Below are positions 1,417-36,160 of a stretch of DNA of 64,000 bases, in pieces. Every line of letters begins with the position of its first letter. Position 1 is the first letter of the stretch. Origin of the DNA: Candidatus Aminicenantota bacterium (GTDB taxonomy: Bacteria > Acidobacteriota > Aminicenantia > Aminicenantales > Saccharicenantaceae); assembly GCA_014360015.1 (NCBI GenBank), contig JACIYJ010000005.1, positions 124,001-188,000 on the forward strand. The letters run 5' to 3'. The translations under genes were made by a program, and so were the position numbers. Under the pieces are notes generated by a model. That model was given only the letters and a program-made list of their open reading frames with translations, made no database searches and had not been told where the DNA came from.

Positions 1417-1705
1417 ATTTAATCGAGTTAAAAATTTATCAGGAAATCAAAACAGTCTGAAAATTTAACTGCAAGGTCACCTGCCCTAAAAAAGGCGGAG
1501 AACTTTCTGGGATGAAGTATTTTTCTAATGAAAATGGATGTACCGGCTTTAACAATTTATATTGATTCGCCTTTTTCAACCAAAGATAGATAATTTGCTT
1601 GCTCTAATAAATTTAGAACACTCATCAATTTTTAGATTTTACTTCTAAAAATTTCGATTTCATCAAAAAGAGGCTTGTTCGGCTTGATTTTCTGGAAAGT
1701 CAGAT

Positions 1706-2305
1706 TTACTTCCCGTAAAGTTTGCTCAACACATTAATCAGGTCAAGGTTTTTCTCAACTTCGATAAGCTGGATTTTCTTTGACTGAGCTATGGTGGTAA
1801 ACCGGCCGTCAGCATTGCCTTCTTTGTTGATTAAAAGAATATCGGAGTTGGGGGCCACGGCATCAATGCTCTGTTCATCGGTGGTGTCTCCGGCTGCTGC
1901 CCCCTGAGCTCTTCGTTTCATCCCTTCCACATGGGCGCCGACTATCGTGATTCCCTGTTTCTTGGCTTCCTGAATCAGCTGGGAAATTCTTTTAATTTCA
2001 TCGTCTATAGAAATTCCAGCAGCGCCCATGCCTTTAAGGCTGGCCCCCATGACAATGATGATTGAGCCATAAGGCGTGCCGCTTTCCTTTTTTTTCTGGA
2101 GGTCAGCCGCTGTGGCTAAGGGAGCCAGGTCAAAGGGAATGTTAAGCTTTTGTAGCACTACTTTAATGATCACTGGACCCGGACTTTGGCCGCAGGAAGT
2201 CAGCAAAACAGGTTCCTTAGCTGCGGGCAGGGACTGGGCCAGAATTGCCTTAGCTGGTAATAAGAAGAACGACACCAACAATAACAGAGCTATTATTTTT
2301 TTCAT
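1706..2305 (-). CDS. Small secreted protein, DUF6305-like
   Basis: About 199 residues with a clean Sec signal peptide (Lys-Lys, hydrophobic stretch, cut after AILAQ). I place the start at the second in-frame ATG (2305) because AGGAG lies 6 bases before it, whereas it abuts the earlier ATG at 2311. The mature part alternates beta strands and helices (LLTSCGQSPGP near the N-terminus, then a GSIIIVMGASLKGMGAAGI segment), like a Rossmann-type fold, and carries one conserved-looking SCGQSPG motif. This resembles the family labelled DUF6305, for which no biochemical role is known to me. It stands alone between converging spacers. Function unknown. Confidence 0.72.
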   Translation of the reverse strand: MKKIIALLLLVSFFLLPAKAILAQSLPAAKEPVLLTSCGQSPGPVIIKVVLQKLNIPFDLAPLATAADLQKKKESGTPYGSIIIVMGASLKGMGAAGISIDDEIKRISQLIQEAKKQGITIVGAHVEGMKRRAQGAAAGDTTDEQSIDAVAPNSDILLINKEGNADGRFTTIAQSKKIQLIEVEKNLDLINVLSKLYGK

Positions 2306-28816: not shown

Positions 28817-30880
28817 TTAAAGAGAAATTTTGGTCTGGGCAGTGGACAGTTTTGACGGGTCGCTTTCGGAAGTAGCCTTTAAAGTTAGTATTGCTTCCTT
28901 TGAACATCCAGCTTCCGGGAGAACGTAAACTGTAATTTCCGCGGTTTTACCGAACTCTACTGCAGCCAGAGCATTGAGAATCTTTGCTTTCCAGCCTTGG
29001 CCTTCAATTGAGGCTTCAAGACGATAGAGATCGTAATTAAGATGCCGGGAAACATCTGATGGGTGAAGCGCCGGCGAAACAGCAGCTGGCTGGCCAGTAT
29101 TTTTAAGCACAAAGGTCACCGGAATAAGGTCCTTTTTAGCTTTGATTTTGTTGGTTGGAGCTTTAAGCTCTACACCTCTTTTTTGCGGGCCGGAGCCGTC
29201 GAGCGAGCGCACAGCCAGGGTGTAAGAGAGAATTCCATCCTTGTTTTTATGCACATCCACCACATAGAAATGCAGCCGGTTGGGTGTGTCTTCATACTCA
29301 AAGCGGCTGCCTGAATCCAGGCCGGCGTGGAAAAGAGCATCATTGAGCTGGCGGTAATCGGCAATGGTCCGCATCACTTTTTCGCCAGTCGGGCTGACGT
29401 AATCAACCATGTTGATATCTTCCGGATGAGCGTCGATTACCCAGATGTAGCTGTTAAATTCGTTAGGACCTCCATTCCTGCCCCAGAGTTTATCCTTATT
29501 TTTCGCAATAAGCACACCGCTATCCGGACAGAACGAATCAAATCCAATTCGCTGGACAACTTCCATAGAATAAAAATTGTAATCGGGAATACCAGGCGAG
29601 AGGGGATTGGTGGCTGGGTCATCGGCAGGAGTGCGGTCTCCAGGCTCAGAGCCGTCAAGCCGGACAATCAGGCCAGTGTAGGTTCCGGGGAGAGGATCGA
29701 CTGCCCTGGCTGTAATCTCAGCCACAACCAGACCAGATTTAGCCAGGCCCTCGCGGCTCAAAGTCAGCAGCTCTCCATCACGAATAAACCCGCAGGCCAT
29801 TCGGTTTCTGATCATCAATCCGGCCGGACCGGCAGCACCGGCCACAGGCGGGACCACCCAGCGCATGTGGGGTCCGCCTGGTCCGTTGAAGCAGCCGCGG
29901 TCCATCAAATCCCAAGGCCCCACTGCTGCTCTGCGGTATGGCTGGACGTAAGGGTTGTTGTTGAGGTCGGGAAGGCGAAAGGCAAAATGCCCGAGCTCAT
30001 GAGCGATGGTACCGGAGTTTTCGCCTTGGCGCATTGAAGAAAGACCCCATTGCTGCGAGCCCGCTAACCAGCTGGTCCATTCTACGTAGCGAGTCGGCAC
30101 CCAACGGGGCATGGACGGATTGGGATTCCCCCATTCGGGCGGGATGTCGTCCTTGCTCTTGAATTTCATTAGGCCAAATTCCATCCAGACTCCAGTTTCA
30201 TCATAGCCAGCGTAAATCCGCAGAATGGCATCGTAATTTTTTCTGATATCCTGCCCCACATCTTTTATCCACAGCTCGTCGCAGTCTTTTTCTAAGCGGC
30301 CGGCGGCGATGCTTCCGTCCGGAGTATATTTATTCTGATTGTATTCATTAAGTCCATACCACCAGTAAGGTTTGGGCATCCGGTATGGGCCAAAAGCATC
30401 AACCTGAGTCAGCCCGAATTTTCCCCGTGACTGCTCCATCCAGTAATGATGGATGTTGAGGCCGTGATTGACTTCGAGCGGTTTGGTGAAGAAATCAGCG
30501 TAGAATTGTGGGACTTTTTCCCGAGGAATGGGTTCAACCTGAGGGTTGCCAAATGGGTCTGAGCCTTTGGGAAGGGTGATGACAAAAGGCTGATCTGGAA
30601 AGTCAACCGCGACCACAGCTAAACGAAATCCTCGCTCCGGCTTGATCGAGGGGTCAGACCAGTTGCGGCCGGGGATGGGGCGGTAATCAGCCCAGGTCAT
30701 AGTATCCTGGTCCTGGACCCTTTGCGGGTCGATGGGCGGGGGAAAGGCGGAAATTTTCGGTTTTGAAGTATTATCCTCAGCAGCAATCGGCCATAATGCG
30801 ACAATCAAGATAAATATGAGGAAAGCAAAAAAAATGCTCAAAAAAGTTTTTTTTATCAAGTCTGGCTTTGGTCTGGTCAT
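28817..30880 (-). CDS. M6-family secreted metalloprotease (immune-inhibitor-A-like)
   Basis: 687 residues with a signal peptide (FLSIFFAFLIFILIVAL). N-terminal marker RLAVVAVDFPDQPF opens the M6 catalytic domain; the zinc site is TIAHELGHFAFRLPDL (HExxH, third ligand downstream), followed by the methionine-turn-like PWDLMDRGCFNG. The C-terminal 150 residues look like Ig-type beta domains (LKAPTNKIKAKKDLIPVTFVL, AEITVYVLP). The family degrades extracellular proteins. AGGAGG precedes the ATG. Its upstream region meets the terminator of the peroxiredoxin gene, so it probably has its own promoter. Confidence 0.92.
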   Translation of the reverse strand: MTRPKPDLIKKTFLSIFFAFLIFILIVALWPIAAEDNTSKPKISAFPPPIDPQRVQDQDTMTWADYRPIPGRNWSDPSIKPERGFRLAVVAVDFPDQPFVITLPKGSDPFGNPQVEPIPREKVPQFYADFFTKPLEVNHGLNIHHYWMEQSRGKFGLTQVDAFGPYRMPKPYWWYGLNEYNQNKYTPDGSIAAGRLEKDCDELWIKDVGQDIRKNYDAILRIYAGYDETGVWMEFGLMKFKSKDDIPPEWGNPNPSMPRWVPTRYVEWTSWLAGSQQWGLSSMRQGENSGTIAHELGHFAFRLPDLNNNPYVQPYRRAAVGPWDLMDRGCFNGPGGPHMRWVVPPVAGAAGPAGLMIRNRMACGFIRDGELLTLSREGLAKSGLVVAEITARAVDPLPGTYTGLIVRLDGSEPGDRTPADDPATNPLSPGIPDYNFYSMEVVQRIGFDSFCPDSGVLIAKNKDKLWGRNGGPNEFNSYIWVIDAHPEDINMVDYVSPTGEKVMRTIADYRQLNDALFHAGLDSGSRFEYEDTPNRLHFYVVDVHKNKDGILSYTLAVRSLDGSGPQKRGVELKAPTNKIKAKKDLIPVTFVLKNTGQPAAVSPALHPSDVSRHLNYDLYRLEASIEGQGWKAKILNALAAVEFGKTAEITVYVLPEAGCSKEAILTLKATSESDPSKLSTAQTKISL

Positions 30881-31037: not shown

Positions 31038-31691
31038 TCACACCTTTTTATGGCAGAACCACCAGTCAAAGCATTCGTATTGTTTCTTGCGTTCTTTGGC
31101 GCTCTTGATGTCGGTGGGTGGAGGCACGATCACGTGGTCCTTAATCAGCTCGTTGTTGGGCCAGTTGGCGGGCATAGCCACGTTATTTCTGTCTGAGACT
31201 TGAAAAGCTTCGAGCACTCTCAAAATCTCTGACATATTCCGTCCGACTTCAGCCGGGTAGAACAGAATGAGTCTGATGGTGCTTTCGGGGTCAATAATGA
31301 AAACGGCCCTAACGGTTTTTGTGCCGCCACTTGGATGAAGCATCCCGAGCTGGGTAGCAATTTTACCCTGGTCATCGGCGATGATGGGAAAGGGAATTTC
31401 CACTTTGAGCTCGTTTTCTATCCATTCCACCCACTTGATGTGGCTGAAAACCTGGTCAATTGAGAGACCAAGCAGTTCGGCATTGAGCTTCTGGAATTTG
31501 TCATAGTTTTTAGCAAATGAGACGAATTCAGTGGTACAGACAGGAGTGAAATCTGCGGGATGGCTGAAAAGCACTAACCATTTACCAGCATAGTCTTTTG
31601 GCAGCTTCTTAATTCCATGTGTGGTTTGCACCGCCATTTCCGGCAGTTTGTCTCCGATTAAAGGTAATCCTTTAATGTTGTTAGTTTCCAT
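31038..31691 (-). CDS. Peroxiredoxin (Prx6-type, archaeal-like thiol peroxidase)
   Basis: 217 residues. Peroxidatic Cys52 in [13 protein letters not shown] with the conserved Thr and later Arg. The C-terminus ends [11 protein letters not shown] with Cys207 and Cys213, the same spacing as the Aeropyrum pernix enzyme, so a C-terminal resolving cysteine is likely. It reduces hydrogen peroxide and organic peroxides in the cytoplasm. AAAGGAGGG precedes the ATG. It lies about 170 bases downstream of desulfoferrodoxin in the same direction, forming an anaerobe's oxidative-defence set: the superoxide reductase makes peroxide, this enzyme removes it. Confidence 0.95.
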
Positions 31692-31860: not shown

Positions 31861-32244
31861 TTACTTTTTGTTTTCCCAGAGTCCGTGGATGTTGCAGTAT
31901 TCCCGGGCCCAGACATGGTCAGCTTCAACTGGGAAGAAAGCTTCAGGCTTATCACCGGGTTTAAGCTCCTGCCGGTAAACCCGGCCGTCAGCAATGAGCT
32001 CAATCCATTCAATGTAGTGCTTTTCTTCCATCGGATGAGCCACATTCTGGCCGACTTTGACTAAGTAGCCGCCGCTTACCTTTTCAATGTAGGGGACATG
32101 TTTTTCCAGAGTGGTATCAGCGGTCTTGGGTTCCATCAGAACCATATCCTGGCCGCAGCAGACCAGAGTGCCCATACCTTCGTGCAGGACTTCAACGATG
32201 TTCCCGCACTTAAGACACTTGTAGATGCCTAATCTTGTAGCCAT
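31861..32244 (-). CDS. dfx: Desulfoferrodoxin (superoxide reductase)
   Basis: 127 residues, two iron centres. Centre I: Cys10, Cys13, Cys29, Cys30 (YKCLKC and VCCGQ), a desulforedoxin-type Fe(Cys)4 site. Centre II, the catalytic one: His ligands in EKHVPYIE and [12 protein letters not shown] plus Cys and His in EYCNIHGLW, the usual His4Cys set. It reduces superoxide to hydrogen peroxide without making oxygen, as anaerobes do. AAGGAGGG precedes the ATG. It starts 11 bases after the stop of the Fur-family regulator gene, so both are co-transcribed. Confidence 0.97.
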
Positions 32245-32255
32245 TTATACCCTCC

Positions 32256-32711
32256 TTAAATTTTTTTGCTCTTTAAACAGGAAGGGCAGAGGCCCTTCAG
32301 GTCAAGATGCTTTTCGTATATTTCAAAACCATCCAGTCCGCTGAGCTTTAGGTTTTCAATGTGAACATCGAAAACTTTTCCGCAGCGCAGGCATTTGAAA
32401 TGTCCGTGCCAGGAGAGGGTGGCGTCATAGCGGGCTTCGTTTTTCTCAACGTTGACCAGCTGGACGATTTTCTTCTCCAGGAATAGCTTCAGGGTGTTGT
32501 AAACTGTACCGCGAGACATGGCTGGAATTTCTTTCTTTAAGGTTTCGAAAATTTCTTCAGCCGTAGGGTGGGTTCGTTCATTAATCAGGTACTCGAAGAT
32601 TTTCAGACGATAGAAAGAAGCTCTGATGTTGTGTTTGGTCAGGTATTCCCGGACATCTTCCAGACTCCAACGCTTGCTCGGTTTTTTGTTTAATTCCATT
32701 TCTGCTCTCAT
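32256..32711 (-). CDS. Fur-family regulator, PerR-like
   Basis: 151 residues: winged helix in residues 15-85 (HPTAEEIFETLKK...MSRGTVYNTLKLFLEKKIV) and a metal/dimer domain with HGHFKCLRCGKVFD and CPSCLKSKK, the structural zinc site. Coupling to desulfoferrodoxin and peroxiredoxin points to a peroxide or oxygen sensor (PerR) rather than an iron regulator. A second in-frame ATG lies four codons in; neither has a clear Shine-Dalgarno sequence. A 9-9-9 inverted repeat overlaps its own promoter, suggesting autoregulation of the whole operon. Confidence 0.93.
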   Translation of the reverse strand: MRAEMELNKKPSKRWSLEDVREYLTKHNIRASFYRLKIFEYLINERTHPTAEEIFETLKKEIPAMSRGTVYNTLKLFLEKKIVQLVNVEKNEARYDATLSWHGHFKCLRCGKVFDVHIENLKLSGLDGFEIYEKHLDLKGLCPSCLKSKKI

Positions 32712-32741
32712 TGTTAAAATAAATCTAAAATTAAATTCAAT

Positions 32742-32773
32742 ACAATATTATACTTAATTTAATATTGTGTCAA
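32742..32773 (-). promoter_or_regulatory. Promoter with overlapping inverted-repeat operator of the Fur-family/dfx/prx operon
   Basis: Minus strand: TTGACA at 32773-32768 and TATAAT at 32752-32747 (15-base spacer, somewhat short). A perfect inverted repeat, ACAATATTA (32742-32750) and TAATATTGT (32760-32768), with nine bases between, covers both boxes. The position fits repressor binding, most simply by the regulator encoded next to it. Confidence 0.6.
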
Positions 32774-33128
32774 GAGCTTTGTGAAGACTATTCTGCACTT
32801 CTTTTCTTGCACAGCCGGTCGTCATTAAAAGCCTTCAGAATCTCCTCAGCAAAGCCTTTGGGAAGTCGCTTATGAGGCTCAACCTGTGAAAAAGTCCCGC
32901 TGGAAAAGAGCGTTACTAATGTCTTGAAGCCCTACAACTGCTTGAAAATACGAAAATTTGTGTTAAAATGAAAAAGAAAATTACATTTACCCACGTTGAG
33001 ACCACACCTTAATTGATTGTCATTGGGGATAATTCTCGGAGGGAAATTAATATCGTTTCTTATCTGTCTGCAAAGGGGATAGTATTTATGACTTTTAAAA
33101 AGCATGAATTATGGCCAAGGAGTTTATC
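32774..33128. other. Divergent spacer upstream of the radical SAM gene
   Basis: About 355 bases between the Fur-family operon promoter and the radical SAM start. A Cys/Lys-like reading frame around 32790-32900 has no start and no supporting signal. No RNA gene or repeat recognised. Confidence 0.35.
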
Positions 33129-34625
33129 ATGAGAATCGTGCTGGTTTACCCAAGTTTTCCTGATACCTTTTGGAGCTTTAGATATGCCTTAAAATTTATC
33201 TCCAAAAAGGCAACCTATCCTCCATTAGGGTTGTTGACTGTAGCGGCCATGCTTCCAAAAGATTGGAAAAAAAAACTCATAGATATGAATGTAACAAAGC
33301 TGAAAGATAAAGACCTTGAGGGAGCCGATTTCGTTTTCCTTAGTGTCATGGCCATACAAAAAGCCTCAGCCAAAGAAGTGATCAATAAATGCAAAAAAAT
33401 GAATGTCAAGGTCGTTGCTGGCGGTCCTCTTTTTACCACCACCTATGAAGAGTTCGAGGACGTAGATTATCTTGTACTTAATGAGGCTGAAGTCACACTT
33501 CCACTCTTTTTAGAAGACTTGAGAAACGGACGGGCGAAACATATTTATACCTCCAAGGAATTCCCGGATATAGAAAAGGCGCCGATCCCGCTTTGGGGAC
33601 TTGTCGAGATGAAAAAATATGCGAATATGTGTCTCCAATATTCACGCGGCTGTCCTTTTAATTGTGATTTTTGCGATATAACTAATCTTTTTGGACACGA
33701 GGTTCGAACAAAGAGCAAGCCTCAAATATTGGCTGAATTGGAAAGCCTCTACCTTAAAGGCTGGAGAGGCGGAGTATTTTTTGTTGATGATAACTTTATT
33801 GGAAACAGGAGGAAGCTGAAGACTGAAATCCTGCCAGCAATAGTCGAATGGATGCGAAAAAAAAGATATCCCTTCTCTTTTAGCACTGAAACCTCTATCG
33901 ATCTGGCCGACGATGAGAAACTCAGGCAATTGATGGTTCAAGCAGGATTTAACTCAGTATTTGTCGGCATAGAGACGCCGAACGAGGAAAGTTTGTCGGA
34001 GTGCCATAAGGTTCAAAATAAAAATCGTGACTTGTTAGCTTCTGTTAAAAAAATCCAGAAATCTGGGTTACAAGTAAGCGGAGGATTTATCGTAGGATTT
34101 GATAGTGATCCACCTTCAATTTTTCAAAGGCAAATTGAATTCATCCAAAAAAGCGGCATTATCACGGCTATGGTTGGCTTATTAAATGCACCCCGGGGCA
34201 CAAAACTTTATCAACGCCTGATGAAGGAGAATAGATTGTTAAAGGATCCTTCTGGAGATAACACTGATTTTTCCATAAATTTTAGGCCTAAAATGAATTA
34301 CGAAACGCTGATTAATGGCTATAAAAAAATTGTTAAAGAAATTTACTCTCCTAAGGTTTATTATGAGCGGGTTAAAAACTACTTGAAAGAATATAAGCTA
34401 CTACGAAAGTTGCATTTTCACTTCGGACACATTCGTTTGCATTTCGGTTATTCCGGAGCCTTTTTTAAATCTGTCTGGTTTCTTGGTATAAAAGATAAAG
34501 CCAGGGCTTATTATTGGAAGCTCTTATTTTGGGCTTTCTTTAGACGCCCAAGACTACTGCCGCTGGCCATTACTTTTGGAATTTATGGCTTCCATTTTAG
34601 AAACATTTTCAAGGATAAATTGTAA
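33129..34625 (+). CDS. B12-binding-domain radical SAM protein (DUF4070-type)
   Basis: About 498 residues from the ATG at 33129, which has AAGGAG six bases upstream; an ATG at 33111 lies before that site. N-terminal cobalamin-binding-like domain (VYPSFPDTFW..., LLTVAAMLP, VVAGGPLFTT, DYLVLNEAE), then the radical SAM core with Cys-x3-Cys-x2-Cys in YSRGCPFNCDFCDI, and a C-terminal DUF4070-like part (YETLINGYKKIVKEIYSPKVYYERV). Family members modify lipids or other small molecules; the substrate is unknown. No His is obvious for a canonical DxHxxG B12 motif. The DNA is visibly richer in A and T than its neighbours, which hints at transfer. Confidence 0.9.
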   Translation: MRIVLVYPSFPDTFWSFRYALKFISKKATYPPLGLLTVAAMLPKDWKKKLIDMNVTKLKDKDLEGADFVFLSVMAIQKASAKEVINKCKKMNVKVVAGGPLFTTTYEEFEDVDYLVLNEAEVTLPLFLEDLRNGRAKHIYTSKEFPDIEKAPIPLWGLVEMKKYANMCLQYSRGCPFNCDFCDITNLFGHEVRTKSKPQILAELESLYLKGWRGGVFFVDDNFIGNRRKLKTEILPAIVEWMRKKRYPFSFSTETSIDLADDEKLRQLMVQAGFNSVFVGIETPNEESLSECHKVQNKNRDLLASVKKIQKSGLQVSGGFIVGFDSDPPSIFQRQIEFIQKSGIITAMVGLLNAPRGTKLYQRLMKENRLLKDPSGDNTDFSINFRPKMNYETLINGYKKIVKEIYSPKVYYERVKNYLKEYKLLRKLHFHFGHIRLHFGYSGAFFKSVWFLGIKDKARAYYWKLLFWAFFRRPRLLPLAITFGIYGFHFRNIFKDKL

Positions 34626-34657: not shown

Positions 34658-36160
34658 TCAGCGACAGTAGTAATCAATCATTTGCTGAATGGCCCGCTGG
34701 CAGACCTTACAGAATTCCACCTTTGGACTGGAAATCATCAGGCAGTAGATCATTGGTCGGTAAAGGCCTTTGGCGGAATAACCAGCACCTTCAAAAGCTC
34801 CAACTTTGTCTTCCAGGTCCCTATACCGATTGCGAACCTCTTGAATTCTGGCCTGAATGGTTTCGTCTTTATCCTGATATTTTTTCTGCAACTTCTTGAT
34901 TTCCGCTTCTTTCAAGTTCTTCTTTTTAGCTTCTTCCAGAGCTTTGGTCATTTCCTGAAAATTAGCTCTTCTGTCGGCCTGGAGTTTTTCCAGCTCTTCT
35001 TTGCCATATTCGGTGGGAATTTTAACTCCAGGGGAGACCAGGTTTTTCCATTTGAGGTTCTCCGGGTCAAGAAGCGCGGTGATGTTGGGCTCAAGTGGTT
35101 CAACTCCGCGCGGGTAGAATTCGTTATAAGCAACATCTGAGGTATAGTATTCATCAGCCAGACCGGCGAAGCTGTGTCCGAATTCATGGAGAAAAACGCC
35201 TTTACTGGCAGGATGGTCGACCGTAGTGATGCAGTAGTCATTGTAAATTCCACCACCGCCATATCTTTTGCTATTAACCAGGACAACGATGGTGTCATAT
35301 GGCACCTCGGCGGCCATTTCTCGGAGTAAAAAGCCCTCTTCTGTCAGCATATAGCGGTCAAGGTCAAAGGCGTTGAAGGAAGCCTTAAGCACCGTGTTCT
35401 TGTAGGCTTTCTGCCGGGGCTCATCCATACCTCGTTCAGCCGAGGCTCGAAAAACACCGTAGATGTTGAATTTATCCTGGTTGCTTTTGTAAGGTTCCGT
35501 TTCAAACAGATAGCCGGTAAATCTTTTTACGTCGCCGACAAACTTATCCCTGTCTTCGGCAGTATATCCTTCGGCCAGAAATACCAGGTCTACTTTTTCC
35601 TGTGGGTCGCCTCTTTTCTTCACTTCGAAGATGTAATCACCTGTTTTATTGCTCTCTTTAATGTGATGATAATCATCCGGGTCAATGGTTTCGATGGTCA
35701 GAGGATGCAGAATGTTCTTTCTGTCTCTGACTTCAAAGACTAAATTAACCGGTCTCTTGGGCCAGGGGATGCGGATGGCTCGCTGAAAAACTTTTTTCAC
35801 GCCGTTTAAGGCCGGAGTCGTTGTCTTGTACTCACCAAACTGACAATCAAAACCATTGGCATAGATGAGTTTGTTGCTGGCAACTTCATAGACTTTGATG
35901 AAGTAATGACCGTAATTGAACGGATTGGTCAGGTTGGTCTTACTTTCAGGCCAGAGGTCTTCCTGATAAATGCTCTGGATAATGATACTTTCTTCCTTAG
36001 CGTCGCCAACCATGTAGAAATTAATCCGCATGGCTTTGTTCAGAAAATAATCCTCAAATTTTATAGGGTCCTGACTCCAGGCAGGAAAAGAGGAAAGAAA
36101 AAAGAGAAAGACGAATAAAACTGGAATTAAATTAAATAATTTTTTTTGGCCCTTGCCCAT
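34658..36160 (-). CDS. Secreted M64-family (IgA-type) metallopeptidase
   Basis: 500 residues with signal peptide (LIPVLFVFLFFLSSFPAWSQ). An N-terminal beta domain (residues about 30-170) precedes the M64 catalytic part: VDLVFLAEGYTAEDRDKF, FNIYGVFRASAERG, and the zinc motif FLHEFGHSFAGLADEYY, in which HExxH is followed by the Asp-Glu pair typical of M64. Between 395 and 450 lies a charged coiled-coil-like stretch. Cys residues near the end (YCLMISS...FCKVC) are probably disulfide bonded. The family type member cleaves immunoglobulin A, but environmental members are general extracellular proteases. GGAGG precedes the ATG. Confidence 0.93.
   Translation of the reverse strand: MGKGQKKLFNLIPVLFVFLFFLSSFPAWSQDPIKFEDYFLNKAMRINFYMVGDAKEESIIIQSIYQEDLWPESKTNLTNPFNYGHYFIKVYEVASNKLIYANGFDCQFGEYKTTTPALNGVKKVFQRAIRIPWPKRPVNLVFEVRDRKNILHPLTIETIDPDDYHHIKESNKTGDYIFEVKKRGDPQEKVDLVFLAEGYTAEDRDKFVGDVKRFTGYLFETEPYKSNQDKFNIYGVFRASAERGMDEPRQKAYKNTVLKASFNAFDLDRYMLTEEGFLLREMAAEVPYDTIVVLVNSKRYGGGGIYNDYCITTVDHPASKGVFLHEFGHSFAGLADEYYTSDVAYNEFYPRGVEPLEPNITALLDPENLKWKNLVSPGVKIPTEYGKEELEKLQADRRANFQEMTKALEEAKKKNLKEAEIKKLQKKYQDKDETIQARIQEVRNRYRDLEDKVGAFEGAGYSAKGLYRPMIYCLMISSPKVEFCKVCQRAIQQMIDYYCR

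Follow-up and report, generated by a model that had tools for sequence, protein, structure and literature searches.

How should an exact 9-9-9 inverted repeat that overlies the promoter of a small oxidative-stress operon be read? The repeat lies in the 64,000-nucleotide stretch of Aminicenantota DNA analysed here (the window), and it was originally predicted that it may be a distinct Fur-family operator with longer spacing than the classical 7-1-7 PerR box. The content of the operon had been described correctly in that prediction, as a gene for a Fur-family regulator followed by genes for a desulfoferrodoxin and a peroxiredoxin:

32256..32711, minus strand: perR-like regulator, 151 aa, with a possible alternative start at the in-frame ATG at 32699.
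31861..32244, minus strand: dfx, desulfoferrodoxin (superoxide reductase), 127 aa; TIGR00320 above its cut-off.
31038..31691, minus strand: prx, peroxiredoxin of the AhpC/1-Cys type, 217 aa; NF009668 above its cut-off.

This gene order is largely conserved in the genus Candidatus Saccharicenans, where the motifs of dfx and prx are each found downstream of the regulator in 16 of 17 loci; the exceptions are L008, which has no dfx motif match, and L014, which ends before prx. Two ORFs resembling secreted metalloproteases by eye (HELGH and HEFGH motifs) flank the region on the minus strand at 28817-30880 and 34658-36160, and a radical-SAM-like ORF with a CxxxCxxC motif, also recognized by eye, lies between them on the plus strand (33111-34625).

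The regulator contains the Fur domain PF01475 (87.2 bits against a cut-off of 23.1), and its closest solved structure by sequence is that of Bacillus subtilis PerR (2fe3, E 1.6e-21). Nine metal ligands are invariant in all 25 aligned proteins, and B. subtilis PerR has the same nine. The regulatory site consists of H48, D96, H102, H104, and D115, which we take to be the equivalents of H37, D85, H91, H93, and D104 of B. subtilis PerR, and the structural zinc site is made up of two CxxC pairs (C107, C110, C142, and C145). Residue N72 of the recognition helix, an asparagine in 22 of the 25 proteins and a serine in the other three, presumably corresponds to N61 of B. subtilis, which selects PerR over Fur boxes. 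The only other Fur-family protein of the genome, which is of the Fur/Zur type, has an arginine at this position. The regulator of the operon differs from B. subtilis PerR in its N-terminus, which is longer, and in the segment that follows the first CxxC, which is shorter. It scored 100.2 bits against the NCBIfam PerR equivalog NF052545 and thus remained below the cut-off of 180, which says little about function because the NCBIfam PerR models are narrow and lineage-specific. Given its PerR residues and this score, the protein is best called PerR-like. Its 15 named relatives, most of them from Candidatus Saccharicenans, Candidatus Aminicenantes, or Acidobacteriota bins, share 62-80% sequence identity with it.

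The regulator gene is preceded by a promoter whose -35 and -10 elements the inverted repeat overlaps:

32768..32773, minus strand: -35 element, TTGACA.
32745..32750, minus strand: -10 element, TAATAT, with a 17-bp spacer.
32742..32768, no strand assigned: the reported 9-9-9 inverted repeat, interpreted below as an extended palindrome centred on box 1.

The assignment of TTGACA as the -35 element holds. The TATAAT initially proposed as the -10 element is present at 32747-32752, but its spacer would be only 15 bp long, and TAATAT with a 17-bp spacer is the better candidate. The repeat, ACAATATTA-N9-TAATATTGT, is exact at 32742-32768 on this minus-strand promoter; the interval 32742-32773 given for it earlier includes TTGACA. 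No second exact copy exists in the 2.72-Mb genome of the organism (30 contigs), and allowing up to three mismatches gave one match in the window compared with 0.05 expected from shuffles. Exact 9-9-9 repeats of any sequence occur three times in the window, whereas 40 shuffles contained 0.2 on average. In 2000 dinucleotide shuffles of the leader (32712-32800; 79% AT), 9-bp arms with a 9-bp spacer were obtained in 0.1%, and 9-bp arms with any spacer of 3-20 bp in 2.55%. The repeat is thus unlikely to result from composition alone. An RNA stem-loop was considered and rejected, as the repeat overlaps the predicted -35 and -10 elements.

Inspection of the minus strand suggests what the repeat consists of. 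The 27-mer reads ACAATA-TTAAATTAAGTATAA-TATTGT, and its central 15 bases, which lie on the dyad axis of the repeat, form a degenerate 7-1-7 PerR box followed at fixed distances by two more:

32748..32762, minus strand: PerR box 1, TTAAATTAAGTATAA, 11/14 matches to TTATAATNATTATAA.
32731..32745, minus strand: PerR box 2, TTGTATTGAATTTAA, 10/14 matches to TTATAATNATTATAA.
32714..32728, minus strand: PerR box 3, TTAGATTTATTTTAA, 11/14 matches to TTATAATNATTATAA.

The consensus used here is that of the B. subtilis PerR box as printed in PMC545781. The right arm of the repeat combines the last bases of box 1, the linker TA, and the opening four bases of box 2. It is matched by the left arm because the sequence separating the -35 element from box 1 happens to be AATA-like. 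The 9-9-9 appearance arises from the near-palindromic form of each box and from this chance mirroring, with the linker and the beginning of box 2 on one side and the bases that separate the -35 element from box 1 on the other. Judged from these sequence relationships, the repeat is best read as a palindrome that extends outward from a degenerate 7-1-7 PerR box, and not as a distinct 9-9-9 operator.

The three boxes stand in tandem with 2-bp linkers and an exact 17-bp period and extend from the promoter almost to the start codon. Each is weak on its own, and in the genome of the organism a scan for single boxes was uninformative, since it returned four sites, all in or beside unrelated genes, compared with six for a control pattern. 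The phasing is a different matter. When 32712-32800 was searched for three boxes with a common period, period 17 yielded 32 of 42 matches and the other periods between 13 and 24 at most 26; in 5000 shuffles the mean was 22.6 and the maximum 31, so that the array is visible without recourse to relatives.

The regions upstream of 17 orthologs of the genus, including the locus in the window, have the consensus TTATAATTAGTATAA-TA-TTATAATGATTATAA-AA-TTATAATGATTATAA, that is, box 1 and two more boxes on its downstream side, at distances of 17 and 34 bp. In 15 of these loci none of the three boxes scores below 10/14; the exceptions are L013 (box 3, 7) and L017 (box 1, 9). With the alignment anchored on box 1 only, the mean box score of the 17 loci, which are kin of one another and hence not independent trials, was 11.71 at +17 and 11.65 at +34; dinucleotide shuffles gave approximately 5.6 (sd 0.45) and, at any offset from 15 to 45, no more than 7.4. 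A search of the 19 genus genomes for two boxes separated by any gap from 0 to 28 bp produced 12 matches in seven genomes, all with a gap of 2 (eight at perR promoters and four elsewhere), and no match for the reversed control; the operator in the window is too degenerate to be recovered by this pattern. With the gap fixed, pairs were found at 15 places in ten of the 19 genomes, eight of them at perR, and a looser version of the fixed-gap pattern identified 30 places in 16 genomes; the controls of both searches gave none.

Beyond the genus, 31 loci from other genera of the order were fetched, and 21 of them were taken to be orthologs. Of the 13 in family f6, 11 have two boxes at a distance of exactly 17 bp, each scoring 11/14 or higher; at one of these loci (L121), the second box overlaps the start codon. 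Both loci of family f5 have a second box of 10/14. None of the six orthologs of family f2 has a second box at 17 bp, and in most of them a single copy of TTGTAATGATTACAA or of a similar sequence stands directly in front of the gene. A strict tandem pattern matched five of 396 sampled genomes of the phylum, all five among the 28 of the same order, whereas none of the 368 genomes outside the order matched it; the control gave one hit. A high GC content may be reason enough for the pattern to be absent from much of the phylum. One of the five matches, L142 in family f6, was not a perR gene but a stand-alone peroxiredoxin gene, preceded by TTGACA and two boxes (26/28) 17 bp apart. Among 18 loci with peroxiredoxin genes elsewhere (L142-L159), it is the only one with clear phased PerR boxes; 17-bp pairs of a different type are present at L144 and L145, weak ones (20-21/28) precede the genes at L154 and L155, and L149 yielded no start. 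The remaining loci were weak or negative, several of their genes lying behind other genes. No box above 10/14 was found upstream of rubrerythrin genes (30 loci, 28 with an ORF, of which L088 and L099 probably represent the wrong ORF).

The phylogenetic distribution bears on another explanation, according to which one PerR dimer binds one real box and the other two boxes are leftovers of drift in AT-rich DNA or serve the promoter only. The single boxes of family f2 would fit this explanation, as would the fact that boxes 1 to 3 of the window are about equally weak. However, boxes 2 and 3 match the consensus no less well than box 1 throughout the genus and keep their exact phase, and the search with a free gap recovered a gap of 2 bp only. 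A single functional box is therefore improbable.

Two observations in related genomes concern boxes of other kinds. In genus g13 of family f6, boxes of a different type with 17-bp phasing, such as AAATGATTATTG and TAATAATNATTATTA, precede both a Fur-family paralog and a peroxiredoxin gene (L134, L135 and L144, L145), a hint that more than one regulator may use this phasing. At L035, in a genome of the same family as the organism (G028), a perfect 29-bp palindrome of 14-1-14 geometry by eye, CAATAAATATTATT-T-AATAATATTTATTG, lies just upstream of a Fur-family regulator (matched at 1501-1860, minus strand), which is followed by a peroxiredoxin gene; this is a different box from the PerR box of the window.

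Pairs of 7-1-7 boxes with 17-bp phasing also occur away from perR, in intergenic stretches without an obvious promoter. They were found between mdh and sucC in three genomes (L042, L046, L051), between a pfl-like gene and mscS in three (L040, L047, L062), beside a PALP-family gene in two (L041, L056), including the genome of the organism itself (C12:322348-322379), before an FAD oxidoreductase gene in two (L059, L063), and also at L048 and L060; some of these places are single occurrences. The pairs outside perR often have a G at position 4 of one box and a C at position 12 of the other, resulting in a 32-bp palindrome. If they were due to chance or belonged to another protein, the pair rule would be less specific for PerR than it appears. 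The phased pairs near genes without a link to oxidative stress, and the presence of one more Fur-family gene in the genome, could be taken to mean that the array is bound by this other protein of the Fur/Zur type instead of the PerR-like regulator. We regard this as very unlikely, because at all genus loci examined the array lies at the perR gene itself and because the other protein differs in the residue at the position that chooses the box.

A further alternative is the reading of the repeat as an operator in its own right, with the two 9-bp arms as the recognized halves and 9 bp between them. The arms are exact in the window and in L009, three more loci have 8 of 9 complementary pairs, and complementarity extends to position 10 from the axis in 13 of the 17 genus loci and is seen at position 11 in 14. 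Yet only two to six of nine pairs are complementary in the other 12 loci, the supposed spacer contains conserved box positions, and the unit conserved outside the genus is the 15-bp box. A longer-spaced operator thus has very little probability left, and it is the 7-1-7 boxes that are the conserved part. The check originally proposed, a search of relatives for the repeat upstream of dfx or prx genes, came out positive for the 7-1-7 array, at the stand-alone peroxiredoxin gene of family f6. Complete 9-9-9 arms occur in two of the 17 genus loci only. A chance palindrome is scarcely credible despite the high AT content of the leader and the share of its shuffles that contain a 9-bp-arm repeat, as the 17-bp phasing in the window exceeds all 5000 shuffles and is conserved across genera. 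The core of CIRCE, the operator of HrcA, is GCACTC-N9-GAGTGC. This element has the same 9-9-9 geometry (examples in Table 8 of PMC545781), but was rejected as a candidate because the arms ACAATATTA and TAATATTGT are entirely different in sequence and the regulator here belongs to the Fur family.

With the boxes, their phasing and conservation, the gene order, and the ligand residues established, we consider it highly probable that the locus is a self-repressing, peroxide-inducible perR-dfx-prx operon under a phased triple PerR operator. The original prediction was right in placing the repeat on the promoter of this operon, and the element is very probably the regulator's own operator. From these features we infer binding, repression, and a response to peroxide, with one dimer per box and cooperation between neighbours. 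Metal-loaded PerR would bind the boxes as dimers and keep RNA polymerase off the promoter. The dimer on box 1 would lie over the spacer between the -35 and -10 elements and part of the latter, that on box 2 over the expected start site, and that on box 3 over the interval reaching to the start codon. Peroxide would then oxidize histidines of the metal site, and the release of PerR would switch on the regulator, superoxide reductase, and peroxiredoxin.

At 10.5 bp per turn, centres 17 bp apart place neighbouring dimers approximately 220 degrees apart around the helix, so that dimers with a footprint of about 20 bp apiece could fit between one another from nearly opposite sides of the DNA. Pairs of dimers on almost opposite faces are described for Fur (PMC4506495). 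In a spacing model for a PerR-like protein, as outlined in PMC3293774, contacts are formed at 18-21 bp and none at 14-16 bp, and 17 bp falls in neither group. A more far-reaching proposal is that the PerR-type recognition unit of the Aminicenantales is a rigidly phased array (box centres 17 bp, or about 1.6 helical turns, apart), on which dimers on nearly opposite faces cooperate on weak boxes, and that the non-promoter arrays near genes of central metabolism are genuine sites with another role. This is conceivable, although we would hold it only tentatively.

The operator is of the known PerR kind, with the box consensus of B. subtilis, and what is uncommon is the strict 17-bp phasing of three boxes over the regulator's own promoter, a difference from the B. 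subtilis system. The rbr1-perR-rbo operon of the anaerobe Clostridioides difficile likewise encodes PerR together with a desulfoferrodoxin and is repressed by its own PerR, but it also includes a rubrerythrin and a glutamate synthase-like gene, and a phased array does not figure in the description of the operon consulted (PMC8546684). The PerR sites predicted for delta-proteobacteria resemble those of the Aminicenantales in that perR lies beside oxidative-stress genes and palindromes overlie the promoter (Rodionov 2004, PMC545781); they do not fit the B. subtilis consensus, whereas the Aminicenantales sites do. Three potential PerR sites are also present upstream of perRA in Leptospira interrogans (cited in PMC8638967). 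A literature search on phased PerR arrays retrieved no 17-bp array, which does not prove novelty, as subscription papers were poorly covered.

These results correct the reading of a tempting palindrome and add an uncultured lineage to those with a PerR box of the B. subtilis type. The search rule of two boxes with a gap of 2 found a peroxiredoxin promoter without being directed there. That the 17-bp phasing stays fixed while individual boxes drift predicts cooperative occupancy, and this phasing offers a simple test of how dimers of the Fur family may share DNA.
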